Positions 48,179-64,000 of a DNA stretch of 64,000 nucleotides are shown here, piece after piece. This DNA is from Martelella mediterranea DSM 17316 (GTDB lineage Bacteria; Pseudomonadota; Alphaproteobacteria; Rhizobiales; Rhizobiaceae): the NCBI RefSeq assembly GCF_002043005.1, contig NZ_CP020332.1, forward strand, positions 186,001 through 250,000, given 5' to 3'. The translations under genes were made by a program, and so were the position numbers. Below the pieces are notes generated by a model that worked only from the letters and a program-made list of their open reading frames with translations, had not been told where the DNA came from and did no database searches. Numbering within the stretch: the first letter of the stretch is position 1; the number at the start of each line of letters is the position of its first letter.

Positions 48179-48188
48179 TTGCGCGGGC

Positions 48189-49130
48189 TCAGAGGTCAAG
48201 GACCAGCCTCCCGCCCGAACAGGCGCGCGAGACGCAGATCATGATCTTGTCGGCCTTTTCCTCGTCCATCAGCACCATGTCGCGGTGATCGGCCTCGCCC
48301 TCCAGGAGTCGCGTCTTGCAGGTGCCGCAGGTGCCGCTCTCGCACGAGCTGACGGTCGGGAACCCGGCATCGCGCATAGCCTCGAGGATCGAACGGTCGG
48401 CGGGCACGGTCAGCGTGATGCCGGTCTTCTTCAGCTCGACCTCGAAGGCCTCGTCATCGGCGCGCACAACGTCGACGGGCTTGAAATCCTCGAAGTTGAC
48501 GCGGCCTTCCGGCCAATGGCCCGAGATCGCCTCGATCTCGTCCATCAGGGGCTTTGGCCCGCAGCAATAGACATTCAGCTTCTGCGGCTCGGCAAAATGG
48601 TCCCAGAAATCGTAGATCTTCTCGGGGTCGCCCTCGTCGTGATGGGCCAGGACACGGTCGCCGTAAGCGGTGGTCAGGTCTTCCAGGTAGGCCGCCTCTT
48701 CCGCGCTGCGGCTGAGGTAGATGATGTTGAAATCCTTGCCTTCGCGCTCAAGATGCGCGGCCATGGCCGAGATTGGCGTGACCCCGATGCCGCCCGCGAT
48801 AAGCAGGTAGCGCGGCGCGTCGGCCATGGGGAAGTCGTTTTCCGGCGCCTCGACGTTCAGCTCGAACCCCTCGACCGCCTCGTCATGCATCGAGGCCGAG
48901 CCGCCCCGGCTGGCCGGCTCGCGCTTCACGGCGATCTTGTAATGGTCCGGCGCGGTGCCGTCGTTGACCAGCGAATAGCGCCGCATTGCCCCCGAGGGCG
49001 TCTCGACCGTGACATGCGCGCCGGGCGTGAATCCGGGCAGCGCGCCCTCTTCCATCGGAACCAGCGTGAATTCGGTGATCTGCGGGGTCAGCGCGCGTCT
49101 TGCACCGACGCGCATCCTGATGAGCTCCAT
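48189..49130 (-). CDS. pht2: Phthalate-dioxygenase-reductase-type flavoprotein
   Basis: A 313-residue reductase of class IA. The flavin-binding part has MRRYSLVND, the NAD-binding part has YLLIAGGIGVTPISAM and YCCGPKPLMDEI, and a C-terminal plant-type 2Fe-2S domain carries SSCESGTCGTCKTRLLEG with the remaining Cys in CVSRACSG. It passes electrons from NADH to the Rieske oxygenase encoded on the other strand. It is the first gene of the long minus-strand operon and shares the divergent regulatory region with the oxygenase. Confidence 0.92.
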   Translation of the reverse strand: MELIRMRVGARRALTPQITEFTLVPMEEGALPGFTPGAHVTVETPSGAMRRYSLVNDGTAPDHYKIAVKREPASRGGSASMHDEAVEGFELNVEAPENDFPMADAPRYLLIAGGIGVTPISAMAAHLEREGKDFNIIYLSRSAEEAAYLEDLTTAYGDRVLAHHDEGDPEKIYDFWDHFAEPQKLNVYCCGPKPLMDEIEAISGHWPEGRVNFEDFKPVDVVRADDEAFEVELKKTGITLTVPADRSILEAMRDAGFPTVSSCESGTCGTCKTRLLEGEADHRDMVLMDEEKADKIMICVSRACSGGRLVLDL

Positions 49131-49167: not shown

Positions 49168-49187
49168 TTTAGATAGCTAAGTATATG
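49168..49187. promoter_or_regulatory. Operator-like palindrome in the divergent oxygenase/reductase control region
   Basis: TTAGATAGCTAA with flanking AGTATATG lies between the divergent genes. The reverse strand reads CTTAGCTATCTAAA, matching similar elements in front of three other units in this block. Confidence 0.75.
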
Positions 49188-49242
49188 TTGTCAAGCATTC
49201 GAGATTGGCCTTCACGGGCCCGGGCCGCAGGAGGAGTACGAG

Positions 49243-50520
49243 ATGCTGACCCCCGAAGAGAACGAAGTCCTGACCCGCGTGACGGGTGACGCGCCGATGG
49301 CGAAACTGATGCGTCAGCACTGGACGCCGGTCTGCCTGATGGAAGAAGTGGCGGAGAACGACGGCAAGCCGCTGCGCGTCGAAGTGCTTGGCGAATCCTA
49401 CGTCGCGTTCCGTGATACCAAGGGCCGTCTCGGCATGCTCGACGAGCTCTGCCCGCACCGCAAAGCCTCGCTGGTCTACGGTCGCAACGAGGATTGCGGC
49501 CTGCGCTGCCTGTACCACGGATGGAAGATGGATGTGGACGGCAACGTCGTCGCCATGTCGTCCGAGCCCGAGGGCAGCCCGCTGATGGACAAGGTCAAGG
49601 CCCGTTCCTACCCGGTGCGCGAATGGGGCGGTTTCGTCTGGGCGTGGCTCGGCGACAAGACCGACATGCCGGAGTTCCAGCCCCCCGCCTTCGCCCCAAC
49701 CGAAGACACCCCGGTCGCCATCCTGAAGATCCGTGTCCCCGCCAACTGGGCGCAGATCCACGAAGGACAGATCGACAGCGCGCATTCCTCGTCGCTGCAT
49801 TCATCAACGATGAAACCGGCCCGCGTGGAAAGTGCCGCAGCCGATGACAAATCGTGGTACCGCCCGTCGACCGACAAATCGCCGCGCATGCAGACCGAGA
49901 CCACCAGCTACGGCTTCCACTACGCAGCGATCCGCAAGCCGATCAAGAACGCAGCAACGCATCATTACCTGCGCATCACCGAGTTCGTGGCGCCATACTA
50001 CTCGCTGATCCCGCCCAACAACGCCTACAAGGTCGCCAGCGTCATCGTGCCGATCAACGACGACGAGACTGCGTTCCACTTCCTCGCCTTCGGCGGCCCG
50101 AAAGTGCCCTCGACCGAGGAATGGCGCGCCTTCAACCACGCTGTTCCGGGCAAGGACCTGGATGAGAAGTGGCGCACGCTTCGGACGCTGGACAACGACT
50201 TCAAGCAGGACCGCGAGCTGATGAAGGAAGGCCACTTCACCGGCGTTCCGGGCATCCCGAACGAGGACATCATCATGTGGGTGTCGATGGGCAGCCGCGT
50301 GCAGCGCCATACCGACGTGCTGGGCGCCTCGGACCTCGCCATCGTCGAGTTCCGCCGACTGATGACCGACGCCGCGCAGAAGGTGGCCGAGGGCGGCCCG
50401 GCGATCGGCACCGCGAGCTTCGCGCTGCAGTCGCGCATCGCCTCGCACGAGGGGGTCTATCCCAAGGATGTCGACTGGCGCACGCTGGTCGCCCATGACC
50501 CGGCCGAAGCGGCCGAGTGA
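49243..50520 (+). CDS. pht3: Rieske non-heme-iron oxygenase, phthalate 4,5-dioxygenase-like
   Basis: A 425-residue alpha-subunit. The Rieske centre is in DELCPHRKASLVYGR (about residue 68-82) and LRCLYHGWKMD (about 87-97). The mononuclear iron site appears as HEGQIDSAHSSSLHSS with Asp and two His. Sequence and gene order match oxygenases of the Pht3/OphA2 type, which act alone with a Pht2-like reductase. AGGAGG precedes the ATG. It is divergent from the reductase and ends at a strong terminator. The exact aromatic substrate is unproven. Confidence 0.9.
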   Translation: MLTPEENEVLTRVTGDAPMAKLMRQHWTPVCLMEEVAENDGKPLRVEVLGESYVAFRDTKGRLGMLDELCPHRKASLVYGRNEDCGLRCLYHGWKMDVDGNVVAMSSEPEGSPLMDKVKARSYPVREWGGFVWAWLGDKTDMPEFQPPAFAPTEDTPVAILKIRVPANWAQIHEGQIDSAHSSSLHSSTMKPARVESAAADDKSWYRPSTDKSPRMQTETTSYGFHYAAIRKPIKNAATHHYLRITEFVAPYYSLIPPNNAYKVASVIVPINDDETAFHFLAFGGPKVPSTEEWRAFNHAVPGKDLDEKWRTLRTLDNDFKQDRELMKEGHFTGVPGIPNEDIIMWVSMGSRVQRHTDVLGASDLAIVEFRRLMTDAAQKVAEGGPAIGTASFALQSRIASHEGVYPKDVDWRTLVAHDPAEAAE

Positions 50521-50555
50521 CGCGCTGGCGCTTTCCTCCCAAGGCGCACGCAGGG

Positions 50556-50589
50556 AAGGCCCGCACGAGCAATCGTGCGGGCCTTTTTT
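50556..50589. terminator. Bidirectional terminator after the oxygenase gene
   Basis: AAGGCCCGCACGA / TCGTGCGGGCCTT form a 13-bp stem with a 4-nt loop, followed by TTTTTT. It lies between convergent oxygenase and IclR genes. Confidence 0.92.
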
Positions 50590-50620
50590 CATGGTCTTGT
50601 TCAGAGTTGCGCGCGCCTCT

Positions 50621-51412
50621 TCAGACGGTTTCGAGGCGCGCCGCCAGCTCCGCCGACGTCCGGCGCAGCAGCTCGGAGAGTTCATCCGCGCGGCGTGATA
50701 TGCGCTCCGTCGGCCCATGAATCCCGATGCCCAGCGGGCGTGCGTGCCCCGGCGGCACCGGGATCAGCGTCGACATCATAGACGCATCCCAATGCACCGT
50801 GCGGTGCGTCGGAATGTCCAGCAGGTCGCGCGCGTGCAGGATCGACACGTCGGTATCACGATTGGCGTCGAGCACCGCCTCGAAGGCCGCCTGGGGGTAG
50901 TCGCGCGGCGAGATCAGCCCCTCGGCCACGGTGCGGCGGTAGATCTGCAGCGCCACCGGCCGCGGCGCGCGCGCCAGCATCAGCCAGCCGGTGCCGTTCT
51001 GCACCATCAGCCGCCGGTCGCCCGCGCGGATATGGGTGTTGCGCCCCTCCTGCCGGTGCAGCGAGGTGACGTAATCGACATGCAGGTCGGCGGGCGCGGC
51101 CAGCACCACCGGCTCGCCCGCAGCCTCGCGCAGACGGCACAGGGCATCGAACAGCACGGTCTGCTCATAATCGTCGACCTGCATCCAGCCCGTCAACGTC
51201 TGCAGCCGGGGCCCGGGGAGATAGGCATGGGTCGCGGGATCGAGCGTCATGTAACCCATGTCCAGCATTGTACGCAAAAGCGCGGTCAGGCTGGAAACCG
51301 GATAGCCGAGCGCGGCGCCCAGTTCGTGCAGCCGGGCAGGCTGTCGGTGACTGGCGAAGAACTCGAGGATCTCGAACACCCGCGCGGCGGATTTCACCTT
51401 GTCTGCGGTCAT
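50621..51412 (-). CDS. IclR-family transcriptional regulator (second)
   Basis: A 263-residue regulator. The winged helix is SAARVFEILEFFASHRQ with LGAALGYPVSSLTALLRTM; the effector domain includes DYVTSLHRQEGRNTHIRAG and RTVHWDASMMSTLIP. It is convergent with the oxygenase gene and divergent from the 3-hydroxyacyl-CoA dehydrogenase-like gene. It may control that gene and, with MarR and the first IclR, the catabolic block. Confidence 0.86.
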   Translation of the reverse strand: MTADKVKSAARVFEILEFFASHRQPARLHELGAALGYPVSSLTALLRTMLDMGYMTLDPATHAYLPGPRLQTLTGWMQVDDYEQTVLFDALCRLREAAGEPVVLAAPADLHVDYVTSLHRQEGRNTHIRAGDRRLMVQNGTGWLMLARAPRPVALQIYRRTVAEGLISPRDYPQAAFEAVLDANRDTDVSILHARDLLDIPTHRTVHWDASMMSTLIPVPPGHARPLGIGIHGPTERISRRADELSELLRRTSAELAARLETV

Positions 51413-51750
51413 CTCTCCTGCCCTTCCGATTCACACGACTCGGCGACCCGTACCGGCCAGCTCCGTCCTGTCCCAATCTAGGCGAATCGGCGCGCTGCGG
51501 AAAGGGTTCGCGACGCGGCCCCGGCGGATGTCCCGCAGCCGGCGCACGGGACTACGGGCAGAATTCACATCCTCGAAATATCCGCCGTGCGGGGCGGTTG
51601 GCGTTGACCGGAGGCCCGATTTCGCAAGGCTGTCGGCAAGGGAGACGGCGGGATGCGCGCGCGATGGCGCAGCGGCACGGCCCTCCCCGTTCATCCCTTT
51701 CGGCAGGCGGCCGGCACGCCCCGACCGCCCCTGACACCAGACGAGGTTCC
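51413..51750. other. Divergent intergenic region between iclR-type and dehydrogenase genes
   Basis: About 340 GC-rich bases. TTGACC at about 51605 could serve as a -35 element for the plus strand, and GAGG precedes the dehydrogenase ATG. The TAGCTATCTA element found elsewhere is not present. No gene was recognised. Confidence 0.4.
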
Positions 51751-52737
51751 ATGCCCGACACCGCCCCCTCCATCCCCCGCCCGCCGTCGTCCGGCACGAT
51801 CTGCGTCGTCGGCGCGGGCTTCATGGGCTGCGTGATCGCCACGCTCTATGCCCACCACGGCCATGATGTCGCGCTGTGCGACATGAATACCGAGTTGCTG
51901 GCCAGCTTTGCCGAGCGCGCGCGCCCGATCGCCGCGACCTTCGCAGACGACCCGGCCGCCGTCGACGCGATGCTGGCGCGTGTGCGCACCGAGCCCTCGC
52001 TGGCCGAGGCCGTGAAGGGCGCATTCATGGTGCACGAGGCGGTGCAGGAGAAGCTCGAGACCAAGCAGGCGCTGTTCGCCGAATTGGACGCGTTCTGCCC
52101 GCCCGAGGTGGTGCTGGCCACCAACACCTCGTCGCTGTTGCTGTCGGACATCGGCGCCAAGGTGAACGGCAAGCAACGGATCCTGGGCCTGCACTATATC
52201 ACGCCCGGGCACATCATCCGCTCGATCGAGGTGATCCACGCCGATTTCACCCCGGCGTCGCTGGTGGAATGGGGCCGGGCCTTCGTCGAATCCATCGATC
52301 ACGTGGGCGTCGCCTGCGGGGAGCGGCCGGGCTTCCTGATCAACAAGATCCAGTTCGCCATGCTGACCGAGATCTATCGCCTGATGGACGAAGGCATCGC
52401 CAGCCGCGACGATATCGACGCGGCCGTGCGGCTGAGCATCGGGCCGCGCCTCGCGCTGTGGGGGCCGCTGCTGACCGAGGATCTGATCGTGTCGAAGGCG
52501 ACGGCGCTGGCCGTCACGGATTCGCTGTACCACCAGACCGGGGACGAGAACTACAAGGGCCGCAAGGCGCTGCGCGACCTGGTCGAGGCCGGGCACATGG
52601 GCGCGATCACCGGACGCGGCTGGTACGAGTACGACGCGCCCTATGCCGAGATCGTCTTGGAGCGCGACCGCCAGCTGACAGACCTCCTGGAGTGGCTGCG
52701 GGAGCGCGACCCGGTGGGCCGGCTGGCGCCCCGCTGA
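51751..52737 (+). CDS. 3-hydroxyacyl-CoA dehydrogenase-like NAD enzyme
   Basis: A 328-residue protein with an N-terminal Rossmann fold (ICVVGAGFMGCVIATLYAHH), NTSSLLLSDI, the catalytic His region RILGLHYITPGHIIRSIEVI, and a C-terminal 3HCDH domain (ERPGFLINKIQFAMLTE; GRGWYEYD). The group also contains carnitine and L-gulonate dehydrogenases, so the substrate need not be a CoA ester. It is monocistronic on the plus strand and ends at a terminator. A role in oxidising a hydroxylated side chain is possible. Confidence 0.85.
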   Translation: MPDTAPSIPRPPSSGTICVVGAGFMGCVIATLYAHHGHDVALCDMNTELLASFAERARPIAATFADDPAAVDAMLARVRTEPSLAEAVKGAFMVHEAVQEKLETKQALFAELDAFCPPEVVLATNTSSLLLSDIGAKVNGKQRILGLHYITPGHIIRSIEVIHADFTPASLVEWGRAFVESIDHVGVACGERPGFLINKIQFAMLTEIYRLMDEGIASRDDIDAAVRLSIGPRLALWGPLLTEDLIVSKATALAVTDSLYHQTGDENYKGRKALRDLVEAGHMGAITGRGWYEYDAPYAEIVLERDRQLTDLLEWLRERDPVGRLAPR

Positions 52738-52745
52738 GACACGAA

Positions 52746-52778
52746 AAAGGGGGCGGATGATCCGCCCCCTTTCCTTTT
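52746..52778. terminator. Bidirectional terminator between dehydrogenase genes
   Basis: AAAGGGGGCGGA / TCCGCCCCCTTT form a 12-bp stem with a 3-nt loop, followed by CCTTTT. The two genes converge here. Confidence 0.88.
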
Positions 52779-52798
52779 GCCACAGTCCGGATAAAGGC

Positions 52799-54259
52799 TT
52801 ACTGGCCGCCCAGGTTGATGTGGATGTTCTTCTCCTGCGTGAACGAGATCAGCTCGCCGATCCCCTCCTCGCGCCCGAGGCCCGACTGCTTGTAGCCGCC
52901 GAAGGGCGCACCCAGGAAGTGCCGCCCGACCTCGTTGATCCAGACGAAGCCGGCCTCCGCGCGGGCCGCCGCGCGATGCGCCGTGGCCAGGTCCTTCGAC
53001 CAGATCGAGCAGGTCAGGCCCACGTCTAGGCCATTCACCTCGTCCATCATTGCCCCCTCGTCCGACCAGCGGCGCAGCACCAGCACCGGGCCGAAAATCT
53101 CCTCCCTGGCGACGCGCATGTCCGGTGTGACATCGGCGAAGATCGTCGGTTCGACGAAGCAGCCGTCCGCCATCGCGCCCTCGGTCACCGCGTTGCCGCC
53201 GGTGACGACGCGCGCGCCCTCTGCCTTGCCCGAGGCGATGTAGCCCATCACCCGATCGAAATGCTCGCGCCCGACCAGCGCGCCCATTGTCGTCGCGGGG
53301 TCGGTCGGCATGCCCGGCTTGAAGCGCGACACAGCCGCCGCCAGCCGCTCGACGACCGCGTCGTGCAGGTCGTCATGCAGGAAGGCGCGGCTGGTCGAGC
53401 CGCAGCTCTGCCCGCACCAGCTGAAGTTCATGCCCGCGACGATGGCGTTGGCCACCTTGTCGGGGTCGCTGTCCGGATAGGCGATCAGGGCGTTCTTGCC
53501 GCCCAGCTCCAGCAGCACCGGCTTCAGCGTGTCGCTGGCCGCGCGCATCACCGCGCGCCCGGCCCCCACCGAGCCGATCAACGTGACCTTGTCGACACCC
53601 TTTTGCGAGGCCAGCGCCGCGCCCGCCTCCGTCCCGCCGGGGAGCACGGTAAAGACACCCTTGGGCAGCAGGCCGTCGATCAGCTCGGCCAGCCTCAGCG
53701 CCGAGAGCGGCGCCTGCACCGGAGGCTTGATGATGACCGCGTTGCCCGCAGCCAGCGGTGCGCCCATCTTGCCGCCGCAGAACATCAGCGGGTGGTTGAA
53801 CGCCAGGATCCGCGCCACCACGCCCAACGGCTCGCGCAGGGTCATGTTGATGCGCTCGGGGCCCATCGGGATGGTGTCGCCCTTCATCTCGGTGACGAGG
53901 CCGGCAAAGAATTCCATCTGCGCCGCGGCGACACCCGCGTCGCCGCGCATTTCGGTATAGGGGTTGCCGCAATTGGCGGAATCCAGCAGCGCCAGCTCGT
54001 CGCCATGCTTGCGGATGATGGCGGCGATCTCCTTCAGCACGCGCGCGCGCTCCAGGGGCGCCACGTCGCGCCATTCGCGGAAGCCCGCGCGGGCGCTGGC
54101 CACGGCCGCGTCCACGTCCGCTTCGCCCGCCGTGGCGACCTGCGCCAGCACCTTGCCGGTGGCCGGATCGAAGGTGGGATCGGTGCGGCCGGATTGTGCC
54201 GCGTGCCATGCATTGCCGTAGTAGAGCCCGAGGTTCGCGGGCAGGGTCGGTTCGAGCAT
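52799..54259 (-). CDS. Aldehyde dehydrogenase (betaine-aldehyde-dehydrogenase-like)
   Basis: A 486-residue NAD(P)-dependent aldehyde dehydrogenase. LLELGGKNALIAYPD carries the catalytic Glu and SWCGQSCGSTSRAF the nucleophilic Cys; HFLGAPFGGYKQSGLGREEG is the C-terminal family block. It converts an aldehyde to an acid in the cytoplasm. It is the last gene of the dctP-dctQ-dctM unit, so its substrate is probably derived from the imported compound. Confidence 0.9.
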   Translation of the reverse strand: MLEPTLPANLGLYYGNAWHAAQSGRTDPTFDPATGKVLAQVATAGEADVDAAVASARAGFREWRDVAPLERARVLKEIAAIIRKHGDELALLDSANCGNPYTEMRGDAGVAAAQMEFFAGLVTEMKGDTIPMGPERINMTLREPLGVVARILAFNHPLMFCGGKMGAPLAAGNAVIIKPPVQAPLSALRLAELIDGLLPKGVFTVLPGGTEAGAALASQKGVDKVTLIGSVGAGRAVMRAASDTLKPVLLELGGKNALIAYPDSDPDKVANAIVAGMNFSWCGQSCGSTSRAFLHDDLHDAVVERLAAAVSRFKPGMPTDPATTMGALVGREHFDRVMGYIASGKAEGARVVTGGNAVTEGAMADGCFVEPTIFADVTPDMRVAREEIFGPVLVLRRWSDEGAMMDEVNGLDVGLTCSIWSKDLATAHRAAARAEAGFVWINEVGRHFLGAPFGGYKQSGLGREEGIGELISFTQEKNIHINLGGQ

Positions 54260-54329
54260 GGAGCCCTCCTAGTCTTACAGATGGCGTCTCAGGAAAGGCG
54301 GGCGACCGGGGCCGCCGCGCCGAGGGTTG

Positions 54330-55640
54330 TCACAGCATCGACGGCAGCAGCGTCGACAGCCCGGGAACCAGTGCCAGCACGATCATGCCCAGCAGGTACA
54401 GCAGCACAAAGGGCCAGGCCGAGGAGAAGACCTTGCCGAGGCTGGCGTCTTCCCACGCGCTTTTCAGCGCGAAGAGCGTGTAGCCGAAGGGCGGGGTCAT
54501 GCCCCCCACGGTGATGTTCACCAGGAACAGTAGCCAGAACCAGATCGGATCGAATTGCAGTTCCTCGATGATCGGCAGGTAGATCGGGATGACGATCAGC
54601 ATCAGCGCGATCTGGTCGATGAACATGCACAGCACGAAAGGCAGCAGCATCAGCAGGATGAGCATCACCCAGCGCGACTGTTCCAGCCCCACGACCCATT
54701 CGGTCATCGCCGAGGCACCGCCGGTGAAGGCCAGCAGCTGGCTGAACAGTTTCGAGCTGGCCATGATGAACAGGATCATCGCCGCCACCTTGGCCGAGGA
54801 AACCAGCGACTCGCCGATCATCTTGAACGACAGGTTGCGATAGATCGCGGCGATGATCAGCGAACCGATGACACCCATCGCGCCGGCCTCGGTCGGCGTG
54901 GCGATGCCGACCAGGATGAGCCCCATCACCATCAAGATGATGATCGAGAACGGCACCACCCGCAGCAGCGCCCAGCCCTTGTCGGCCAGCGTGGCGCGGG
55001 TGCCGTCGTCGGGCTCGTCGGGCGCCAGCGACGGGTTCAGCCAGACGCGGATGAAGCAATAGCCCAGGAAGATCGCGGCGAACATCAGGCCGGGAATGAT
55101 CCCGGCGATCAGCAGCCCGGCGATGGAGACGCCGGCCAGCGTGCCGATGATGATGACCAGCACACTGGGCGGGATCAGCGGCGCCAGGCTGGCGCCCGCC
55201 AGGATCGTGCCGGCCGACAGCCGCGCGTCGTAGCCGCGCGCGACCATGCCCGGCAGCAGCGAGCGGCCCAGCATGGCCGCCACGCCCATCGCAGCACCCG
55301 ACAGGGTGCTGAACACCGTGGCCAGCAGGATCGACAGCACGTACTGGCGCCCTTTCACCCGACCGACCAGAGTGTCGATGGACCGGAGCAGCACCTCGAC
55401 CGAGTTCGAGCGGAACAGGATCTCGCCCATCAGGATGAACAGCGGGATGGTGACCAGCGATTGCGTGGTCGTCGTCTCGTAGAGCGAGTTGACGAACATG
55501 CCGTAGCCCATCGGTCCCATGATGACCGCGACGGCCAGCAGGTTGACCAGCAGGAAGGCCGCGAAGACGGGCAGGCCTACGGCCATGAAGCCCAGGAGCA
55601 GCCCCACGCCGGTCGCGACGGCGGCGATACCTTCAACCAT
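54330..55640 (-). CDS. TRAP transporter large permease (DctM), second system
   Basis: A 436-residue protein with 12 or more membrane helices. LVTIPLFILMGEILFRSN, LAPLIPPSVLVIIIGTLAG and VNITVGGMTPPFGYTLFALK are DctM blocks. Its start overlaps the small permease gene by 8 nt. It forms the sodium-coupled channel of a complete DctPQM system followed by an aldehyde dehydrogenase. Confidence 0.9.
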   Translation of the reverse strand: MVEGIAAVATGVGLLLGFMAVGLPVFAAFLLVNLLAVAVIMGPMGYGMFVNSLYETTTTQSLVTIPLFILMGEILFRSNSVEVLLRSIDTLVGRVKGRQYVLSILLATVFSTLSGAAMGVAAMLGRSLLPGMVARGYDARLSAGTILAGASLAPLIPPSVLVIIIGTLAGVSIAGLLIAGIIPGLMFAAIFLGYCFIRVWLNPSLAPDEPDDGTRATLADKGWALLRVVPFSIIILMVMGLILVGIATPTEAGAMGVIGSLIIAAIYRNLSFKMIGESLVSSAKVAAMILFIMASSKLFSQLLAFTGGASAMTEWVVGLEQSRWVMLILLMLLPFVLCMFIDQIALMLIVIPIYLPIIEELQFDPIWFWLLFLVNITVGGMTPPFGYTLFALKSAWEDASLGKVFSSAWPFVLLYLLGMIVLALVPGLSTLLPSML

Positions 55641-56142
55641 GGGTCACCTCGGGTTGGGAGTCGGTCTCGGAAAGCGCCTGGCCGAAGGCGAGGCGCAGAA
55701 AATACAGGCCGGAATTGGCCACGCCATAGGTGATGAAGGCCACCAGGATCCATTTCGGAATGCGCACGGTGGTCAGGGTCGCCGTCCCGCGCGAGGCCAG
55801 GTGCTGCACCTCGCCGATGCAAAGCCAGGCAGCCCAGAGACAGGTCGCCGCCGCCACCAGGAAGCCCGCGCGCAGGATCACCTGGCGCAGCCGGCCGACC
55901 AGGTCGGGCAGGATAGTCACGGCCACGTGCCCGCCTTCGCGGGTCAGCCAGGGCGCGGTGCTGAACACCGTGATCAGCAGCAGGAAGGAAACGAAATCGC
56001 TCGCCCAGAGGGTCGGCGCGCCGAAGGCATAGCGCGAGACGACCTCGAAGGCGTAGATGAGCACGATGGCTGCCAGCGCACCGACGCCGATGAAGAACAT
56101 CAGCCGGGTCAGCACGTCCTGAAGCGTCAGGATCGGTCGCAT
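55633..56142 (-). CDS. TRAP transporter small permease (DctQ), second system
   Basis: A 169-residue protein with four membrane helices. IVLIYAFEVVSRYAFGAPT is the typical first-helix R-Y motif, and FLLLITVFSTAPWLTREGGHV the second. It partners the large permease with which it overlaps, and is preceded by the binding-protein gene and a stem-loop. Confidence 0.85.
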   Translation of the reverse strand: MRPILTLQDVLTRLMFFIGVGALAAIVLIYAFEVVSRYAFGAPTLWASDFVSFLLLITVFSTAPWLTREGGHVAVTILPDLVGRLRQVILRAGFLVAAATCLWAAWLCIGEVQHLASRGTATLTTVRIPKWILVAFITYGVANSGLYFLRLAFGQALSETDSQPEVTHG

Positions 56143-56209
56143 GGAGGGAAGCTCCTGGAACGGAAAGGCCGAAGAGAATGGGCCGAGAAGGAGGACCGGG
56201 GGACGGAAA

Positions 56210-56237
56210 GACGCGCGGCACCAAGCGGCCGCGCGTC
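56210..56237 (-). other. Stem-loop between binding-protein and permease genes
   Basis: GACGCGCGG and CCGCGCGTC make a 9-bp stem within the dctP-dctQ spacer. It lacks a T-run, so it more likely stabilises the dctP transcript than ends transcription. Confidence 0.5.
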
Positions 56238-56256
56238 GGAAGGGGCCGGGCCCCGA

Positions 56257-57258
56257 TCAGCCGTCGAGATCGGCTTCGGTCGCCAGACGGCGAATTTCCT
56301 CGATCGCCTCGCCCGATTGCGTGGCCGCGAGGTCCATCACGCCCGAGAACCAGGCCGAGCTGAGCGTGCCCGCCAGTTCCTCGGACAGCTCGGTCACGCT
56401 CATGCCCTCTGCTTCCAGGGCGGCGCTCTCTTCGGCGACTAGCGTGTCGAACAGGCCATTGGCTTCGATCTCGAACTCGCGCGCGGCGGTCTCGATCTCG
56501 GCCCGGGTTTCCTCGGACAGGTCGTTCCAGGTGTCAAGGTTCATCAACACCAGATGGCCGACCTGGCCGAAGGTCGGGCGCATCATGTAGTCGGCGACCT
56601 CGAACCAGCGGTAGGACAGAGCGCCGATGGTCGGCCAGGCCGCACCGTCGATCACACCGCGTTCCAGCGCCGGGTAGATCTCGCCGCCCGGCAGCACCAC
56701 GGGCGAGCCACCCAGTACGTTGATCGCCGGGTGGTAGATCGGCGTGCCGCGCACGCGACGTCCTTCGAGGCCGTTCTCGCCGACCGGCTCGTTCAGCATG
56801 ATGTGGTAGCCATTCAGGTCGTAAAGCACGGCGATCAGCTTCAACCCCTGCTCCTGGTAATCGGCATCCACCGCGTCCCAAATTCCGGCTTCGCGCAAGG
56901 CCTCGGTATCGCCCGACAGGCCGTCCAGCGCCATTCCCACCGAAGTCTGGTTGAAGTGATAGGCACCATTGGTGAACAGCAGGTCGAACAGGCCGCGCGA
57001 CACCGGGTCGAACTGCTCGAACGGGGGCACGGTCTCGGGGCCCATGACGTTGACGCCGAAGCCCTCGGTTACGGCTTCGTCGAGCGTCTCGATGAACGAC
57101 GTCAGCACGTCGACCGCAACATAGCTGGAATCCCAGCCCGACAGCAGGCGGAAGTCGCGTGCCTCGGCGGCACCAGTCAGGCCCAGCGTCGCGGCCGACA
57201 GCGCCGAAGCGCCCGCAAGGGCACGCAGTTTGTTGGTGAATGTGGTGGATGAAGTCAT
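56257..57258 (-). CDS. TRAP transporter substrate-binding protein (DctP)
   Basis: A 333-residue exported protein with a signal peptide (LAGASALSAATLGLTGAAEA). RDFRLLSGWDSSYVAVDVLT starts the mature domain; LEGRRVRGTPIYHPAINVLGG carries the Arg position used to bind carboxylates in DctP proteins, and PGGEIYPALERGVIDGAAW is the conserved family segment. It captures an organic acid in the periplasm for the DctQM permease. The palindromic element upstream suggests control with the oxygenase operon. Confidence 0.9.
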   Translation of the reverse strand: MTSSTTFTNKLRALAGASALSAATLGLTGAAEARDFRLLSGWDSSYVAVDVLTSFIETLDEAVTEGFGVNVMGPETVPPFEQFDPVSRGLFDLLFTNGAYHFNQTSVGMALDGLSGDTEALREAGIWDAVDADYQEQGLKLIAVLYDLNGYHIMLNEPVGENGLEGRRVRGTPIYHPAINVLGGSPVVLPGGEIYPALERGVIDGAAWPTIGALSYRWFEVADYMMRPTFGQVGHLVLMNLDTWNDLSEETRAEIETAAREFEIEANGLFDTLVAEESAALEAEGMSVTELSEELAGTLSSAWFSGVMDLAATQSGEAIEEIRRLATEADLDG

Positions 57259-57341
57259 GTCGCTCGCTCCTCCCGTAGCGTTCCGTCTGCGCCGCCCCTG
57301 GGCGGACAGTCTGGTCTGGATTGGCTGCTCAACCTAAAGGG

Positions 57342-57358
57342 TAAGCTATCTAAGCTTA
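57342..57358. promoter_or_regulatory. Operator-like palindrome before the dctP operon
   Basis: TAAGCTATCTAAGCTTA has perfect arms TAAGCT / AGCTTA and contains the AGCTATCTA core shared with the other elements of the block. Confidence 0.75.
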
Positions 57359-57447
57359 TTTGGCGGAGAGCACCTTGTCTTGATTGCCGGCGGGATCATT
57401 GCGACATTTCACATATATGAAATCGTACCGCCCTGCCCGTTCCGGCC

Positions 57448-57723
57448 TCAGCGCGCAGCCAGCCAGCGCCCCAGCTTCCTGTTCAGGAATGGCAGGATCA
57501 GCCCGACATTCAATCCGGTCAGCAGCAGCGCCACGATGAACAGCGAGACCGCCATTGGCATGCCCTGGGTGAAGGGCCGCGTGGCCAGCACCAGGACGAT
57601 AAGCGCGGGATAGACGGCCAGCATGCTGACCGCCCAGCGCTTCCAGAACTTCGGTTGTTGCGGCGGCACGGCGGAGGGGCTCTGCGTCGTGAGTCGGTCG
57701 GCGGTCTGGGTCGGATGGGTCAC
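57448..57723 (-). CDS. Small two-helix membrane protein in the TAXI-TRAP operon
   Basis: A 91-residue protein with a polar N-terminus (about 1-28), two membrane helices (WAVSMLAVYPALIVLVLATR and MAVSLFIVALLLTGLNVGLI), and a basic tail (NRKLGRWLAAR). The architecture resembles the membrane tail of some antibiotic-biosynthesis-monooxygenase fusion proteins, but no enzymatic domain is present. It follows the fused TRAP permease by about 80 nt and may be an accessory subunit. The function is unknown. Confidence 0.65.
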   Translation of the reverse strand: MTHPTQTADRLTTQSPSAVPPQQPKFWKRWAVSMLAVYPALIVLVLATRPFTQGMPMAVSLFIVALLLTGLNVGLILPFLNRKLGRWLAAR

Positions 57724-57801
57724 GTCGGTCTCTCTTGCAAAAGGACGCGCGGCCCGGAGGGGTCCGGGCCGCGCGATCTGTTAGGCTGCGCCAGAGTGGC
57801 A

Positions 57802-59709
57802 TCAGTCGGCGGCGTTCTGTTGCACGCTGGCCCGGCGCCCCGCCACCAGGTGACGCGCCAGCAGAACCGCCCCGATCGCGATGCCCGCCACCGCGAACAG
57901 CTGGAAGGGCGAGACAGCCGCAATCGCACTGCCCAGCATAAGCAGCCGCTCCGCCGGCGACACCGGCTTGCTGGCGAAGGCCTCGACCACGGTGGCCACG
58001 GCCAGCGTGGCAATCACGCCTCCTACCACGGCCAGCGTATTCGACAGGGGGTCGGCCAGCAGCATCAGCGCCGGGTTCCAAACGAAGGCGAAGGGCAGCA
58101 TGAAGCCGATCGAGGCCAGTTTCACCGAGGTGAAGGCGATCTTGAACGGGTCTTCATGTGCAATCGCCGCCGCCGACAGGGCCGCCACCGCAATCGGCGG
58201 GGTCAGCGCCGAGAGAACGGCAAAGTACAGCAGGAACATGTGGCTCTGCAGCACCGGATAGCCCAGTTGCGCCAGCGCCGGACCGACCAGCACGGCAGCC
58301 AGGATGTAGGCGCTCGGGGTCGGCATGCCGAGACCCAGGATGATCGTCACGACAGCGGCGATAACCAGCGTCAGGATCGGCTGCGAGTTGCTAATCACCA
58401 GGATCAGGTTCGCGGCCTTCATACCCAGCCCCGTCATCGACAGGCCCCCGATCACCAGACCCGCGGCGGCACAGGCGCCAGCCACCGGCAGGATGCGCAG
58501 CGTGGTCTCGCCCAAGCCCTCGATCACCTGCCACGGCGACAGGCGCGTCGCCTTCAGCAGCGTCGAGGCGATGATGACACCCATCACGCCGATCCCGGCG
58601 GTGAAGGTCGGAGAATAGCCCGAGAGCAGCGCCACCACGATGCCGATGATCGGCAGCAGGAAGACCCAGCCCGTGCGGAACGTCTGCGCTACGGTCGGCA
58701 TCTCGTCCTCGGACGGGCGCAGGTCTTCGCGCACGGCGCGCAGGTGGACCTGACTAAAGACGCCGAGGTAGTAGAGCAGTGCGGGCACCACGGCGGCGAC
58801 GACCACCGCCTTGTAATCCACGCCGGTATATTCGGCGAGAATGAAAGCGGCCGACCCCATCACCGGAGGCATCGCGCTGCCCCCCGTCGAGGCCGCGACC
58901 TCGACCGCGCCGGCGAAGCGCGCGCTGTAGCCCAGTCGCTTCATCACCGGGATGGTGATCGAGCCCGTCGCCACCACGTCCGAGGTCGGGCTGCCCGACA
59001 TCGTGCCGTAGAGCCCTGAGGAAATCACCGCGATCTTCGCCGGACCGCCGCGGGTGCGCCCGGTCAGAAGCGCCGCGAGGTTGAAGAAGAACTCGCCCCC
59101 GCCCGCTTTCGACAGAAAAGTGCCGAACATCACGAACAGGAAGACGTAGCTGGCGACCACCTGGATCGGCACCCCGAACACGCCATCCGTGGTGAAGACC
59201 AGGATATCGAGCAGGTAGGTGAAATCGTCGACGCCATGCCCGAAGGGCGGCGGCAGCAGGTAGCCGAACCAGTTGTACGCCAGGAAGGCCACGACCACGA
59301 TGGTAAGTCCCATGCCCGTGGTCCGGCGCGTCGCTTCGAGGGTCAGGAGGAGTAGCGAGATGCCGAAGAAGAGCTGCGCGGGCGTGAACGGATCCAGCAG
59401 GCTGATGCGGTCCGCAATGGCGGTGGCGTTCACGAAGAAGAAGATGCCCGCTGCCAGGCTGAGCAGCGACAGGGCGATATCATAGAACGGGATGCGGTCG
59501 GGAGCGTTCGGCGTGGCACCGATCGCCGCGAACATGATCGCGTAGATCCCCGAAACGAAGAGGATGCCCAGAACTAGCGGATCCGAGATGGTGAAGAGGT
59601 TGGCGTAGATCACCCAGGCCGAGAAGATCGCGGCCACCACGACGATGGCCCGTTGCTGGCCGGCCGCAAGATCCCTCCTGCGGCCGGTGGAGACGAGTGT
59701 CCCGATCAT
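57802..59709 (-). CDS. TRAP transporter fused permease (4TM/12TM, TAXI type)
   Basis: A 635-residue membrane protein in which the small and large TRAP permease parts are fused. The N-terminal helices (AIVVVAAIFSAWVIYANLFT onward) correspond to DctQ; the later blocks SSGLYGTMSGSPTSDVVATG, STGGSAMPPVMGSAAFILAE and GLGMPTPSAYILAAVLVGP are those of the large subunit. It overlaps the TAXI binding-protein gene by 4 nt. This is a second, independent importer next to the DctPQM system. Confidence 0.92.
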   Translation of the reverse strand: MIGTLVSTGRRRDLAAGQQRAIVVVAAIFSAWVIYANLFTISDPLVLGILFVSGIYAIMFAAIGATPNAPDRIPFYDIALSLLSLAAGIFFFVNATAIADRISLLDPFTPAQLFFGISLLLLTLEATRRTTGMGLTIVVVAFLAYNWFGYLLPPPFGHGVDDFTYLLDILVFTTDGVFGVPIQVVASYVFLFVMFGTFLSKAGGGEFFFNLAALLTGRTRGGPAKIAVISSGLYGTMSGSPTSDVVATGSITIPVMKRLGYSARFAGAVEVAASTGGSAMPPVMGSAAFILAEYTGVDYKAVVVAAVVPALLYYLGVFSQVHLRAVREDLRPSEDEMPTVAQTFRTGWVFLLPIIGIVVALLSGYSPTFTAGIGVMGVIIASTLLKATRLSPWQVIEGLGETTLRILPVAGACAAAGLVIGGLSMTGLGMKAANLILVISNSQPILTLVIAAVVTIILGLGMPTPSAYILAAVLVGPALAQLGYPVLQSHMFLLYFAVLSALTPPIAVAALSAAAIAHEDPFKIAFTSVKLASIGFMLPFAFVWNPALMLLADPLSNTLAVVGGVIATLAVATVVEAFASKPVSPAERLLMLGSAIAAVSPFQLFAVAGIAIGAVLLARHLVAGRRASVQQNAAD

Positions 59710-60689
59710 TGCGACAGCCCTGCCTCACTGTAGGCACGGGCGGCGCCGGGGTGGAACTCGAGCACGCTGGGCGTGGCGAGCAACTCGGGCGTCAGGGATT
59801 GCATGGCGCTGTGAACCGCGCGCACCTCGTCGATGTTGGTGATGAGGGCGTTGGTCAAGGCATAGGCGTCGTCGTCGCTCATCGCGTCGGTCGCGGCCAG
59901 CAGCGCCCCCAGCGTCACGGTGTTCACGTCCGCCTGCTGGTTCGAATAGCTGCCAGCGGGAATGACCATCTGGCCGGTGCCGAAGCGCTCGTTGGTGGCG
60001 TCGATGACCTCCTGCGGGACCGACAGCAGCACAACGTCAGCATTCGTGTCAACCGCGCGAAACGACGAGTGGTTGATGAAGATGCCGTTGGTAATCATGT
60101 CGAGCCGTCCGTCCTGCAGCAGCTCGCCCTGCTCATTGGCGCCGGCGCGCACGAACTGGCCGCCAGCTTCGGCCAGGGATTCGTCGGTCACCCCCACCAG
60201 CTCGAACATCATCAGCGCGATGTTCGAGGTGATGTTCCCCGAGCGGTTGATGCCGATGCGGATCGGCGCGCCGCTGCCGGCGATGTCGTCCAGGCTGTCG
60301 ATGCCGTATTGCTCGGCCATCGAGCGGTCGAGGAAGAAGTGCATCGGCGCCCAGTTGTACATGTAGCCGATGGCCCGCATGTTCGTGATCGGCCCGCGGA
60401 AGGGCTCTTCGCCTCCCAGCGCGAGCTGCGCCTCGGCGTCGTGCACCAGGCCCAGATCCGTGCGCCCGGCGCCCAGCAGGCCGATGTTGGCGAACCCGCC
60501 GCCCGTAGCCTGATAGGTCACCACGGCCGAGGTGTCCGCCACCTGCGCGGCGCGGTCGATGCCGGCGCCCAGCAGCGACCAAAGGCCGCCCGGGTTCCCG
60601 CCTGAAAGAGTGAGGTTGAGCGATTGGCCGTGACCAGCCGTCGCCGAGACGGCGAGGCCGGCAGCCATCGCGATTGCAGTGAAACGCAT
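59706..60689 (-). CDS. TAXI-family TRAP solute-binding protein
   Basis: A 327-residue exported protein. The start chosen gives the signal MRFTAIAMAAGLAVSATAG with GGAGG 8 nt upstream; an ATG two codons earlier is closer to that site. NLTLSGGNPGGLWSLLGAGI is the hallmark TAXI opening (GG.xGGxWxxxG), and TYQATGGGFANIGLLGAGRTD follows. It feeds the fused permease. The family mostly binds organic acids such as glutamate or 2-oxoglutarate, but aromatic acids are possible in this context. Confidence 0.9.
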   Translation of the reverse strand: MRFTAIAMAAGLAVSATAGHGQSLNLTLSGGNPGGLWSLLGAGIDRAAQVADTSAVVTYQATGGGFANIGLLGAGRTDLGLVHDAEAQLALGGEEPFRGPITNMRAIGYMYNWAPMHFFLDRSMAEQYGIDSLDDIAGSGAPIRIGINRSGNITSNIALMMFELVGVTDESLAEAGGQFVRAGANEQGELLQDGRLDMITNGIFINHSSFRAVDTNADVVLLSVPQEVIDATNERFGTGQMVIPAGSYSNQQADVNTVTLGALLAATDAMSDDDAYALTNALITNIDEVRAVHSAMQSLTPELLATPSVLEFHPGAARAYSEAGLSQ

Positions 60690-60777
60690 AATCATGTCCT
60701 CCCGTTTGGCCCTGCGTCGCGCCCCTCTCCCGTCCGACATCCGGAACACGGGGGCCGGATCGGTGGTTTGCGAAACA

Positions 60778-60798
60778 TAGCTTAGACATCTATCTTTA
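60778..60798. promoter_or_regulatory. Operator-like element before the TAXI-TRAP operon
   Basis: TAGCTTAGACATCTATCTTTA contains TAGCTTAGA and ATCTATCT half sites. The reverse strand reads AGATAGATGTCTAAGCTA, a spaced variant of the element in front of the oxygenase, dctP and hydrolase genes. Confidence 0.6.
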
Positions 60799-60937
60799 AA
60801 GCCCTCGCTAGGAGATTGTCAACGATTAGATACCAAAGCTTGCTATCCCCCCACTCAAGCTCGACGCGGAAGGCGTTACGGTCCCCCGCGGCGCTGGAAA
60901 CCGGGTAATGCCGACACTCACGAAGGCAACATACATC

Positions 60938-61054
60938 ATGACGAAGACCCTGTGCGGGCGGGCGCCCTCGCCCATCCTGCAGCAGCACTATTGCGCCTAC
61001 CGGTGCTACGACGCCGAGGCGGGCCGCGCATTTCATGAGGATTTGCGGCTTTGA
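60938..61054 (+). pseudogene. N-terminal fragment of a VOC-family (glyoxalase/ring-cleavage fold) protein
   Basis: Starting at an ATG with GAAGG upstream, about 38 codons include PILQQHYCAYRCYDAEAGRA with FHEDL, resembling the first beta-alpha unit of VOC enzymes including the early metal-ligand His. A stop follows at once, where IS110 sequence begins. The remaining metal ligands are absent. Confidence 0.5.
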
Positions 61055-61123
61055 TGGTGTGCCCCCCCCGACGGCATCGATGTGCCAAGGTGGGTCTGCA
61101 AGGATCCACAAAGGAGAGCGGTC

Positions 61124-62151
61124 ATGTCGGAGATTATCACGGTCGGGCTCGATCTGGCGAAGAATGTGTTTCAGGTCCACGGTGCCGACGCTACGGGCCG
61201 GGCGGTGCTGCGCAAGAAGCTGCGAAGAGATCAGGTCTGGCATTCTTTGGACAGCTGCCGGCCTGCGTCGTCGCGATGGAAGCCTGCGGTGGCGCCCATT
61301 TCTGGGGGCGCGAGATCGGGAAGATCGGGCATGACGTGCGGTTGGTCCCACCCGCCTACGTGAAGCCATTCGTGAAGCGCCAGAAGAATGATATGGCTGA
61401 TGCCGAGGCGATCTGCGAGGCGGCGACGCGCCCGACGATGCGCTTCGTGCCGGTGAAGAGCGAGGAGACCCAAGGCGCGGCGATGGTCTTTCGCATCCGC
61501 GAGTTGCTTATCCGGCAGCGAACCCAGACCATCAATGCCCTGCGCGGGCATCTGGGCGAGTTCGGAATGATCGTTCCGCAGCGCGCGGCCAACATGTCGA
61601 AGCTGATTGCCATTGTGGAAGACCCGGAAAGCGGTCTGCCTGCCGATGCCATCCCCACGCTCAAGGTGTTGGTGGCGTCACTCGCCCATCTCGGAGCGGA
61701 AATCGGCAAGCTCGATGCCGAGATCGCCCGGTGTGCCAAGGAGAATGAGGTGGCGCGGCGCCTGATGACAGTCCCGGGGATAGGTCCTCTGATTGCCACG
61801 GCCATAGCGGTTCTGGCTCCGCCCCCCGAGACGTTCCGCAAAGCGCGCGACTTCGCGGCCTGGCTCGGGCTCACGCCCCGTCAGCATTCCACAGGAGGCA
61901 AGCAGCGTCTCGGGGCCAACACGAAGATGGGCGAACGGTCGTTGCGGCGATTGCTGATCATCGGGGCCAACAGCGTCATCATCAAGCGGCATGTTCATGC
62001 CGCTGCCCGGCCGGGCACATGGCTTGGCGAGATGCTGACGCGCAAGCCGCCGATGCTGGTGCGGGTCGCGCTGGCGAACAAAATGGCGCGGATCGTCTGG
62101 GCGCTGATGGCCCGAGGCGGCGCCTACCAGTCTCCGACCGCTGCGGCGTAA
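61124..62151 (+). pseudogene. IS110-family transposase with a single-base frameshift
   Basis: The ATG follows AAAGGAGAG. The frame begins ITVGLDLAKNVFQVHGADA with the first catalytic Asp, then at about 61236 the coding sequence continues in another frame (LAFFGQLPACVVAMEACGG), consistent with loss of one base in GGTCTGG. The rest is complete: KNDMADAEAICEAATRP in the DEDD part, MTVPGIGPLIATAIAVLA and FAAWLGLTPRQHSTGGK in the Ser-bearing part. A 342-residue protein would result if the base were restored. Confidence 0.85.
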
Positions 62152-62395
62152 GCCGTCACTGGTCGCGAGGACGTCGGAGCGGAAGAGGGCAAGGAGACGT
62201 TTGGCGCACGGTCGAGAGACGGGATCGGGAGAACCAGAGCGCAACAGAGTGCCATCGAGCACGCGGCTTTGATCTGGACCCGACCTGCGAACACCATACG
62301 GGCCCGCGGCGTGATGATGGCCGCAACAGAGGCCGGATACATGTCAGCACCCGACACCGCGCGAAACTGATCCAGAAACCCTCTTGCGCAAGGGG
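62152..62395 (+). ncRNA. Candidate bridge/seek RNA region of the IS110 element
   Basis: The 240-nt noncoding right flank lies where IS1111-type members of the IS110 family encode a structured guide RNA. No secondary structure has been computed; this is placement by analogy only. Confidence 0.25.
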
Positions 62396-63450
62396 CGGTT
62401 ATACATGTTGCGCAAATGCTGTGAAGGTTTCACCTTGCGAATCCAGTCTGTTAGTCAGGCTGCATGAGCAGACCCATACCCCCGACCTACAAGACCAGGA
62501 ACTGGCCAGCCTACAATGAAGCAGTCAAGCGCCGGGGCTCGCTGACGATCTGGTTTGACCCCGAGATGAGCTGGGATGCCGCGCCGACAGGCAGGCGTGG
62601 CCGCCAGCAGACCTACAGCGATGCCGCTATCCAGACGTGCCTCTCGATGAAAGTGCTGTTCGGCATGGCGCTCCGGCAGACGACCGGGTTCGTCGAGAGC
62701 CTGCTACGGCTGGTCGGCCTGAACTGGACGGTGCCCGACTTCAGCACGCTATCTCGCCGCCAGAAGACCTTGGCCGTGAACATCCCCTACCGCGGCTCCA
62801 AGGGGCCGTTGCACCTGCTGATCGACAGCACCGGGATCAAGGTCGAAGGTGAAGGCGAGTGGCACGCACGCAAGCATGGCGGCCCGAAACGGCGCGTTTG
62901 GCGCAAGCTCCACCTTGGGATCGATGAAGAAACGTTGGAGATCCGGGCCGTCGAAGTCACCGGGAGCCACATCGGTGATGCGCCCATCCTACCCACCTTC
63001 TCGACCAAATCCCGCAGGACCAGGAAATCGGTAGCGTTACGGCTGATGGCGCCTACGACACGCGCAAATGCCACGATGCGATTGCAGATCGCGGTGCCCA
63101 TGCCGTCATCCCGCCCCGCAAGAACGCGAAGCCCTGGAAGACGATCACCGCCGGAGCCGTGGCGCGAAATGAGGCCCTGCGCGCGGCGAAATACCTGGGC
63201 CGCGCGCTCTGGCGACGATGGAGTGGATACCACCGCCGAAGCCGCGTCGAGACAAAGATGCATTGTATCAAGTTGCTGGGCCAGCGGCTCATGGCACGGG
63301 ACTTCGACCGACAGGTCGCCGAACTCCAGGTCCGCATCGCCGTCCTGAACGGCTACACCGCGCTCGGAATACCCGTCACGGAAGCTGTGGGATAAGTCCG
63401 TCCGGGGAAAGGGGAACCTCGGCCTTAAGCCGATTTGTGCATCAGAGCCC
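62396..63450 (+). mobile_element. IS5-family element 3 (IS903-like)
   Basis: The left end contains TTGCGCAAATGCTGTGAAGG and the right end, inverted, GGGCTCTGATGCACAAATCG; both have the GCACAAAT/GCGCAAAT core. The element of about 1.05 kb ends one base before the -35 of the hydrolase promoter. Confidence 0.65.
62464..63395 (+). pseudogene. IS5-family transposase with a single-base frameshift
   Basis: The N-terminal part includes TYSDAAIQTCLSMKVLFGMA, FVESLLRLVGLNWTVPDFST and LLIDSTGIKVEGEGEW (first Asp). After GSHIGDAPILP at about 62995 the homologous reading continues one base out of phase (LLDQIPQDQEIGSVTADGAY, second Asp; YHRRSRVETKMHCIKLLG, Glu). Loss of one base in the CCC(G)ACC context explains it. 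The protein would be about 310 residues. Confidence 0.85.
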
Positions 63451-63478
63451 TTGACACTAATAATTAGCTATCTATGTT
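63451..63478 (+). promoter_or_regulatory. Promoter with overlapping operator element before the hydrolase gene
   Basis: TTGACA and TATGTT are separated by 16 bp. The spacer holds AATTAGCTATCTA, the same core as the elements at 49.17 and 57.35 kb, so a bound regulator would cover the -10 region. Confidence 0.7.
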
Positions 63479-63545: not shown

Positions 63546-64000
63546 ATGTCACGGACAGCCAATTTGGCCGGCCCGCGTTCGCGGACCGGAATGGTGGTGC
63601 TTTGCCTCGCTCTGACCGCGGGCTTCGCCCCGCTCGCGTCGGCGCAGGAGCAGCCCGCCTTCAACGAACATGCGGGAACCCTGCCGGACGGGACGGCATG
63701 GCTGATCCGCGTGCCCGAGAACTGGAATGGTCGACTACTCAGGGATCTGGATTTCGCCAGCAACGTTTCGGTCGCGTCAGCGGTCCAGCGGTATGACGAC
63801 CTGCTCGGTCGTGGCTATGCCTTCGCCGGGCTCGCCCGGCACCCGCTGCGCCTGTGGCAATACGATCCGCAGCGTGAAATCCTGAATCTACAAGCTGTTC
63901 AGGACATTTTCACGGACCTGGAGCGCGCTCCTGACATGGTGCTGCAATACGGCTGTTCTGGCGGAGGGCTCGACAGCCTCGCTTCGGCCGAGGATTACCC
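63546..64000 (+). CDS. Exported alpha/beta-hydrolase-like protein (partial, runs off the right edge)
   Basis: The first 151 codons are in the window. CTGGAGG lies before the ATG. The signal peptide is TGMVVLCLALTAGFAPLASA. The mature start reads LPDGTAWLIRVPENWNGRLL, a pattern of exported esterase/tannase-like hydrolases, and MVLQYGCSGGGLDSLASAED supplies a G-x-S-x-G nucleophile elbow. It could be a secreted esterase that frees the aromatic acid used by the downstream pathway; this is inferred from shared regulation. The acid and His residues lie outside the window. Confidence 0.7.
   Translation, partial: MSRTANLAGPRSRTGMVVLCLALTAGFAPLASAQEQPAFNEHAGTLPDGTAWLIRVPENWNGRLLRDLDFASNVSVASAVQRYDDLLGRGYAFAGLARHPLRLWQYDPQREILNLQAVQDIFTDLERAPDMVLQYGCSGGGLDSLASAEDY

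Follow-up and report, generated by a model that had tools for sequence, protein, structure and literature searches.

A shared inverted-repeat operator before the phthalate genes of Martelella mediterranea and its probable MarR-family regulator

Introduction

Do the genes for release, uptake and ring oxidation of phthalate in Martelella mediterranea DSM 17316 answer to a single regulator? The question is raised by a stretch of 64,000 nucleotides (contig NZ_CP020332.1, positions 186,001 to 250,000 of the forward strand; hereafter the window) on C3, a replicon of 259 kb in a four-contig genome of 5.69 Mb. An earlier note, made from the sequence alone, had claimed one palindromic operator in front of four of its transcription units and suggested that one regulator coordinates hydrolysis, uptake and ring oxidation. 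Here, we describe an inverted repeat, TTAG-N4-CTAA, at the promoters of the phthalate dioxygenase and reductase genes, of two tripartite ATP-independent periplasmic (TRAP) transporter operons (TAXI and DctP) and of an exported amidase gene. A MarR-family protein encoded in the same window very probably binds it, and we consider it likely that these genes form a phthalate regulon under a MarR repressor relieved by phthalate or a derivative of it.

Results

Operator sites in the window

Alignment of the window sites gave the inverted repeat TTAG-N4-CTAA, with TTAGATATCTAA as its ideal 12-bp palindrome; with its AT-rich flanks it has the form of a MarR-type operator, that is, an inverted repeat of about 12-20 bp at a promoter. 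All four sites claimed earlier were found in the sequence (1, 2, 2 and 2 mismatches to TTAGATATCTAA), together with an overlooked fifth one, the second TAXI site (2 mismatches). As had been claimed for the four, none of the five lies within an accepted gene. The sites (no strand assigned) are:

49169..49180, operator TTAGATAGCTAA, reductase/oxygenase divergent region; matrix rank 1, score 22.5; kept in Limimaricola and Marinibacterium plasmids
63464..63475, operator TTAGCTATCTAT, amidase promoter, directly past its -35 box; score 22.4
60782..60793, operator TTAGACATCTAT, before the TAXI operon and downstream of its -35 box; score 18.0; kept in Limimaricola
57342..57353, operator TAAGCTATCTAA, before the dctP operon; score 13.1, rank 4
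60826..60837, operator TTAGATACCAAA, second of the TAXI operon and upstream of its -35 box; score 12.7, rank 5

Scores come from a symmetrised matrix trained on 57 oxygenase-upstream sites of other genomes, the window and its near-copy L059 being left out; with no promoters but those of oxygenase genes in the training set, its hits before transporter and amidase genes count as predictions across gene classes. When the matrix (match length, 20 bp) was applied to C3 and to a 200-kb part of the chromosome C1, about 459 kb in all, the five best matches, starting at 49165, 63460, 60778, 57338 and 60822, were the five sites in the order listed. The sixth was a chromosomal match with a score of 12.3, so that the dctP site and the second TAXI site stand just above background by score. 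Both are conserved in a diverged Limimaricola plasmid, where the dctP site is retained as TAAGTTATCTAAGCTTAT although the surrounding intergenic region has diverged.

The description of the sites in the earlier note calls for some revision. The site before the TAXI operon, which it took for a spaced variant, has the ordinary N4 spacing. The palindrome TAAGCT/AGCTTA before dctP is perfect, as stated; the register that it shares with the family, 57342-57353, is about 2.5 bp off the centre of that palindrome. The proposed core, TAGCTATCTA, does occur exactly at only two places genome-wide, both in the window (49170-49179, minus strand, and 63465-63474, plus strand; reversed control, 3), but was rejected as the operator itself: its four central bases differ from genome to genome, and the conserved unit is therefore TTAG-N4-CTAA. 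Exact matches to the latter (TTAGNNNNCTAA) were likewise found at two places in the genome, one of them in the window (49169-49180), compared to 46 for the reversed control. Allowing two mismatches to TTAGATATCTAA yielded 26 places genome-wide, five of them within the 14.3 kb under study (reversed control, 27 genome-wide). The sole further one-mismatch place in the genome is CTAGATATCTAA at L003:1501-1512 (G000:C1:637231).

Conservation across genomes

Oxygenase loci for comparison were the best 80 of 588, picked by oxygenase similarity in a scan of named genomes. Upstream regions were taken from these 80, from L048, L050, L052 and L053, and from the window; L075, which is without upstream DNA, was dropped from the resulting 85 to leave 84. 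The locus rows contain near-copies and are thus not independent of one another. Exact TTAG-N4-CTAA is present in 61 of the 84 oxygenase-upstream regions, window included (40 dinucleotide shuffles: mean 0.1, largest 1), and the 12-mer with at most one mismatch in 36 of them (shuffle mean 0.025); the repeat occurs upstream of oxygenase genes in alpha-, beta- and gammaproteobacteria. A count of CTTAG/CTAAG arms with at most one mismatch in 85 loci (the 80 with L048 and L050-L053, L051 and L063 being one region and both included) gave 103 sites. For 92 of these, a recognised homologue follows within 350 bp; 11 are unassigned, and none is internal to such a homologue (control, 34). At the score cut-off used for counts, 14, 143 sites were found in 80 loci versus one to nine with ten column-permuted matrices. 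No site of this score was detected in the 200 kb of C1, in 186 kb of C3 beyond the window, or in 67 kb around 20 paralogous MarR genes.

Two sets of hand-chosen genomes, tallied by hand, were searched more widely. In one, of 15 genomes, 39 of 61 places matching the 12-mer with at most one mismatch fall in the phthalate locus, as do all 17 perfect ones (reversed control, 32). In the other, of 25 genomes, exact CTTAG-N4-CTAAG was matched in 17; of its 22 places, 13 are in the oxygenase locus, four at other oxygenase copies (G495, G497) and five elsewhere (reversed control, 76).

The same gene classes are preceded by the operator in other organisms. Limimaricola variabilis retains the reductase/oxygenase site, the dctP site and both TAXI sites, the latter 45 bp apart versus 44 bp in the window; TAXI-upstream pairs 45-46 bp apart are found in Limimaricola, Roseivivax, two Sulfitobacter plasmids and locus L062. 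On plasmids of Sulfitobacter, Roseivivax, Thioclava, Phaeobacter and Thalassospira, sites precede the TAXI operon, the oxygenase, the reductase or the aldehyde dehydrogenase gene in varying subsets, and in a single case (L178) a site precedes dctP. Genome G066 (L050) has four perfect and two one-mismatch palindromes, all intergenic, located in the gaps between reductase and oxygenase, between oxygenase and TAXI operon, and between a thiamine pyrophosphate-dependent enzyme and an aldehyde dehydrogenase. That a shared regulator acts on the oxygenase, the reductase operon, both TRAP transporters and the amidase, as the earlier note had suggested, is well supported by this comparison, the operator fronting equal gene classes elsewhere and co-occurring with one group of MarR proteins (see below).

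Tandem operators recur at spacings of 13-14, 42-46 and 58-62 bp. Helical phasing of such sites was considered and rejected (53 spacings below 250 bp at a score cut-off of 11; resultant 0.08 at 10.5 bp). On Thioclava and Phaeobacter plasmids, sites also precede universal stress protein genes (L177:20690, score 21.0; L179:31143, score 21.3). In Thalassospira lucentensis, a site with a score of 20.4 (L182:27319-27338) stands before a gene for a methyl-accepting chemotaxis protein, which suggests that phthalate chemotaxis belongs to the regulon.

The candidate MarR-family regulator

The candidate regulator is the following:

42113..42634, minus strand, MarR-family regulator, proposed operator binder (Pfam MarR; predicted structure; tree)

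The protein passes Pfam PF01047 (43.2 bits; cut-off, 24.6). Its AlphaFold model (predicted local distance difference test score, pLDDT, 85.8) displays the winged helix and flanking helices of the MarR fold, and the top Foldseek matches in the PDB are MarR-family proteins, with target-length template modelling scores of 0.86 (SlyA) and 0.84 (MepR-DNA). Against the NCBIfam MarR families reg_rSAM_mob, HpaR, BilQ, OhrR and SlyA, it falls under every cut-off (best, 57.4 bits versus 240; HpaR, 49.5 versus 121.2). Its closest matches outside its own genome, among 101 genomes searched, share 54, 46 and 45% identity and belong to other families of the order; within the genus, identity does not exceed 36%.

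This MarR accompanies the operator across the sampled genomes. Among the 50 loci of at least 15 kb (long loci), 49 carry a site scoring at least 14 and 48 encode a homologue of the window MarR, all 48 of the latter having such a site. The genomes of the two remaining loci encode the homologue elsewhere, bringing the count to 50 of 50: in L064, where the site is present, the gene (39% identity) is about 0.6 kb beyond the flank examined, and L110, a locus with neither site nor MarR, comes from a genome with a second cluster of oxygenase, reductase, dehydrogenase and MarR (44%) genes, whose oxygenase and reductase genes enclose the only two exact CTTAG-N4-CTAAG sites of that genome. In the L072 genome, the MarR gene is on another contig than the oxygenase gene and adjoins a TAXI operon with a site. 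In a phylogenetic tree, a branch supported at 99/98 splits the 66 locus MarRs (the window protein and 65 others) from 16 paralogues. This co-occurrence is the ground on which we infer that the palindrome is very probably bound by the local MarR. A site upstream of the MarR gene itself is found in 10 of 61 MarR-bearing loci of other genomes. In the window, TTAGATGTCTTT at 42738-42749 upstream of this gene is operator-like by eye, but it scores 4.2 and is absent in Limimaricola; it was rejected as an autoregulation site.

MarR-family repressors of aromatic catabolism include HcaR, PcaV, CouR, BadR and HpaR, whose repression is, in the known cases, relieved by an aromatic acid. The window protein resembles them in its winged-helix fold, in an AT-rich pseudo-palindrome at promoters and in its linkage to an aromatic pathway; structures of HcaR and PcaV were among its fold-search matches, and CouR and HpaR among its other search matches. 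It differs from the solved members by its low identity to them (about 21% to HcaR in the fold alignment) and by its association with phthalate clusters. The operator of HucR, the uric-acid MarR of Deinococcus, presumably contains CTTAGATGTCTA, the half-sites of which are near-identical to those of TTAG-N4-CTAA; HucR serves another pathway.

Promoter placement and proposed mode of regulation

Three -35 boxes were recognised in the sequence near the operators:

49189..49194, minus strand, reductase operon -35 box TTGACA; 20 bp upstream of the operator centre
63451..63456, plus strand, -35 box TTGACA of the amidase promoter; a few bases from the end of the upstream IS5-type element
60817..60822, minus strand, TAXI operon -35 box TTGACA; flanked by the two TAXI operators

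TTGACA starts 20 bp (reductase) and 19 bp (amidase) ahead of the operator centre, so that spacer and -10 region are covered by the operator. Among 50 reductase-upstream contexts, -20 is the most frequent offset, with 10 cases. Such an overlap with promoter elements suggests repression. In the mechanism that we propose, a dimer of the MarR would bind the TTAG-N4-CTAA sites overlapping the promoters and block the reductase operon, the oxygenase gene, the two TRAP-transporter operons and the exported amidase gene. Phthalate or a close derivative would, upon entering the cell, bind the MarR and cause it to leave the DNA, thereby switching on together the amidase (to yield phthalate from amides), TAXI and DctP TRAP uptake, ring dioxygenation and decarboxylation. 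The ligand and the sign of regulation are proposed by analogy with MarR proteins of aromatic catabolism in general.

Weighing the evidence

A number of observations weigh against this scheme. Only three of the five window sites reach the score cut-off of 14, the dctP site and the second TAXI site falling below it, and the window MarR gene is without a convincing operator at its own promoter (the 42738 candidate being low-scoring and unconserved). The MarR tree comes with long-branch warnings, and the loci behind the co-occurrence counts were selected by oxygenase similarity and include near-copies. In L131, the MarR is distant (40%) and no site scores above 6.9; two exact sites lie elsewhere in that genome. 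L096 and L105 have neither site nor MarR in the stretch examined; in the L105 genome, the two exact sites are at another oxygenase copy and the MarR gene is on a third contig.

The MarR might bind as proposed and yet act mainly as an activator, or respond to a downstream product such as protocatechuate. Sign and ligand are unreadable from sequence, and the site at 60826-60837 is upstream of a -35 box; the reductase and amidase sites, however, directly follow theirs, over the spacer and -10 region, which is the usual position of a repressor site and renders this alternative rather unlikely.

Besides the MarR, which the present data favour, the earlier note had put forward two local IclR proteins as candidate regulators (50621-51412, minus strand, adjoining the oxygenase gene, and 40405-41442, plus strand). 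IclR proteins regulate other aromatic pathways, and IphR and TphR are IclR regulators of phthalate isomers, acting on similar substrates and belonging to another protein family than MarR. The IclR gene at 50621 is retained in the near-identical locus L059 and in Marinibacterium; Limimaricola has a helix-turn-helix gene in its place, and IclR-annotated genes in Thioclava and Phaeobacter clusters add to the case against the MarR. Homologues of the window IclR proteins fail to track the operator: neither protein has one in any of the 50 long loci (E value of 1e-12 over half of the query), though 49 of these carry a site scoring at least 14. Binding of the palindrome by a local IclR protein is, accordingly, quite improbable; these proteins could regulate other steps.

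Highly improbable, too, is a regulator encoded elsewhere in the genome, the linkage of the MarR being incidental. The lack of a convincing operator before the MarR gene would fit it; however, MarR homologues occur in all 50 long-locus genomes and, in the L110 and L072 genomes, lie beside sites though away from the oxygenase locus examined, and the widely shared reading frames, which were not annotated one by one, yielded no further regulator that stood out. Chance resemblance of AT-rich promoter DNA, to which the overlap of the sites with AT-rich -35/-10 regions and the low scores of the two weakest window sites might point, is practically negligible given that dinucleotide shuffles, reversed patterns and column-permuted matrices all fail to reproduce the counts.

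The putative exported amidase and its apparently mobile cassette

63546..64000, plus strand, exported hydrolase, o-phthalyl amidase by annotation; 479 amino acids, runs past the window end (L058:3546-4985)

This protein has no Pfam or NCBIfam match, and a search of 151 genomes (E value, 1e-10) found it in one, the window's own. The segment 61988-64000 comprises an IS5-type element, the promoter, the operator and the start of the gene. It recurs with 99.8% identity in four genera besides Marinibacterium, on plasmids from Phaeobacter piscinae, two Salipiger species, Roseibium and Thioclava. Further plasmids, from Celeribacter, Limimaricola and other Phaeobacter, have its last 1.1-1.2 kb at 99.6-99.8% identity. 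Similarity to further copies of the IS5-type element stops at about 63444-63453, a few bases from the -35 box. In Phaeobacter piscinae, the cassette adjoins TniQ/TniB-type transposition genes about 20 kb from a phthalate-cluster MarR gene (60% identity to that of the window). The annotation of Celeribacter indicus shows no phthalate gene less than 9 kb away from the amidase gene. A Devosia homologue (63% identity) in different flanking DNA has its own site with a score of 14.2; its single-sequence structure model, with a pLDDT of 40.6, was uninformative. The cassette may thus be a gene that moves among plasmids with its own operator and plugs into a resident regulator, such as the MarR of P. 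piscinae.

A broader proposal, which could as easily prove wrong as right, is that this one group of MarR proteins is the ancestral phthalate switch of alpha-, beta- and gammaproteobacteria, governing chemotaxis and universal stress protein genes as well in some of them, and that new functions join as cassettes with a ready-made operator, as the o-phthalyl amidase gene and IS5-type element appear to have done on plasmids of the Roseobacter group. As a MarR regulon, the system is of an ordinary kind; its breadth, a regulator without an NCBIfam name and the mobile amidase cassette are its noteworthy parts. Phthalate serves as a building block of plasticisers; for its breakdown, the system would provide a defined operator and a candidate regulator, and the operator allows further members of the regulon (transporters, amidase, chemoreceptor) to be predicted in many genomes.

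Phthalate pathway genes

The structural genes of the window are the following:

49243..50520, plus strand, phthalate 4,5-dioxygenase oxygenase subunit (pht3-like); LigXa_C and Rieske domains
48189..49130, minus strand, phthalate dioxygenase reductase (ophA1-like); Fer2 and NAD-binding domains; ophA1 in a 99%-identical plasmid
47015..48199, minus strand, dihydrodiol dehydrogenase (pht4-like, Gfo/Idh/MocA); by domains and plasmid annotation
46011..47003, minus strand, 4,5-dihydroxyphthalate decarboxylase (pht5-like), an NMT1-like protein; by homology and plasmid annotation
56257..57258, minus strand, DctP solute-binding protein, first of the dctP operon
55633..56142, DctQ, after DctP
54330..55640, DctM, after DctP
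52799..54259, aldehyde dehydrogenase (phdK-like), after DctP
59706..60689, minus strand, TAXI solute-binding protein; start from homologous annotation
57802..59709, fused permease, following the TAXI solute-binding protein

By homology and annotation, an oxygenase, a reductase, a Gfo/Idh/MocA dehydrogenase and a 4,5-dihydroxyphthalate decarboxylase are thus encoded together, which points to a phthalate 4,5-dioxygenase pathway. The nearest PDB entries to the oxygenase are 7fjl (573.6 bits) and then 7fhr, "Putative Phthalate 4,5-dioxygenase" (202.5 bits). A Marinibacterium anthonyi plasmid with 99.0% identity over 21.8 kb carries the annotations ophA1, pht4, pht5, aldehyde dehydrogenase phdK, thiamine enzyme mdlC and, for the exported hydrolase, o-phthalyl amidase.

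Two genes named by annotation travel with the cluster, one benzoylformate-decarboxylase-like (42806-44566) and the other, the aldehyde dehydrogenase gene at 52799-54259, 2-formylbenzoate-dehydrogenase-like; in other clusters they are joined by an alpha-hydroxy acid oxidase gene. The names of the pair hint at a side route into phthalate. Finally, nadC, encoding quinolinate phosphoribosyltransferase, recurs in phthalate clusters (L177:14135-14926, L179:14684-15535, L182:16899-17780 and L186:15365-16216), where it may represent a tolerant spare copy given that quinolinate resembles phthalate.

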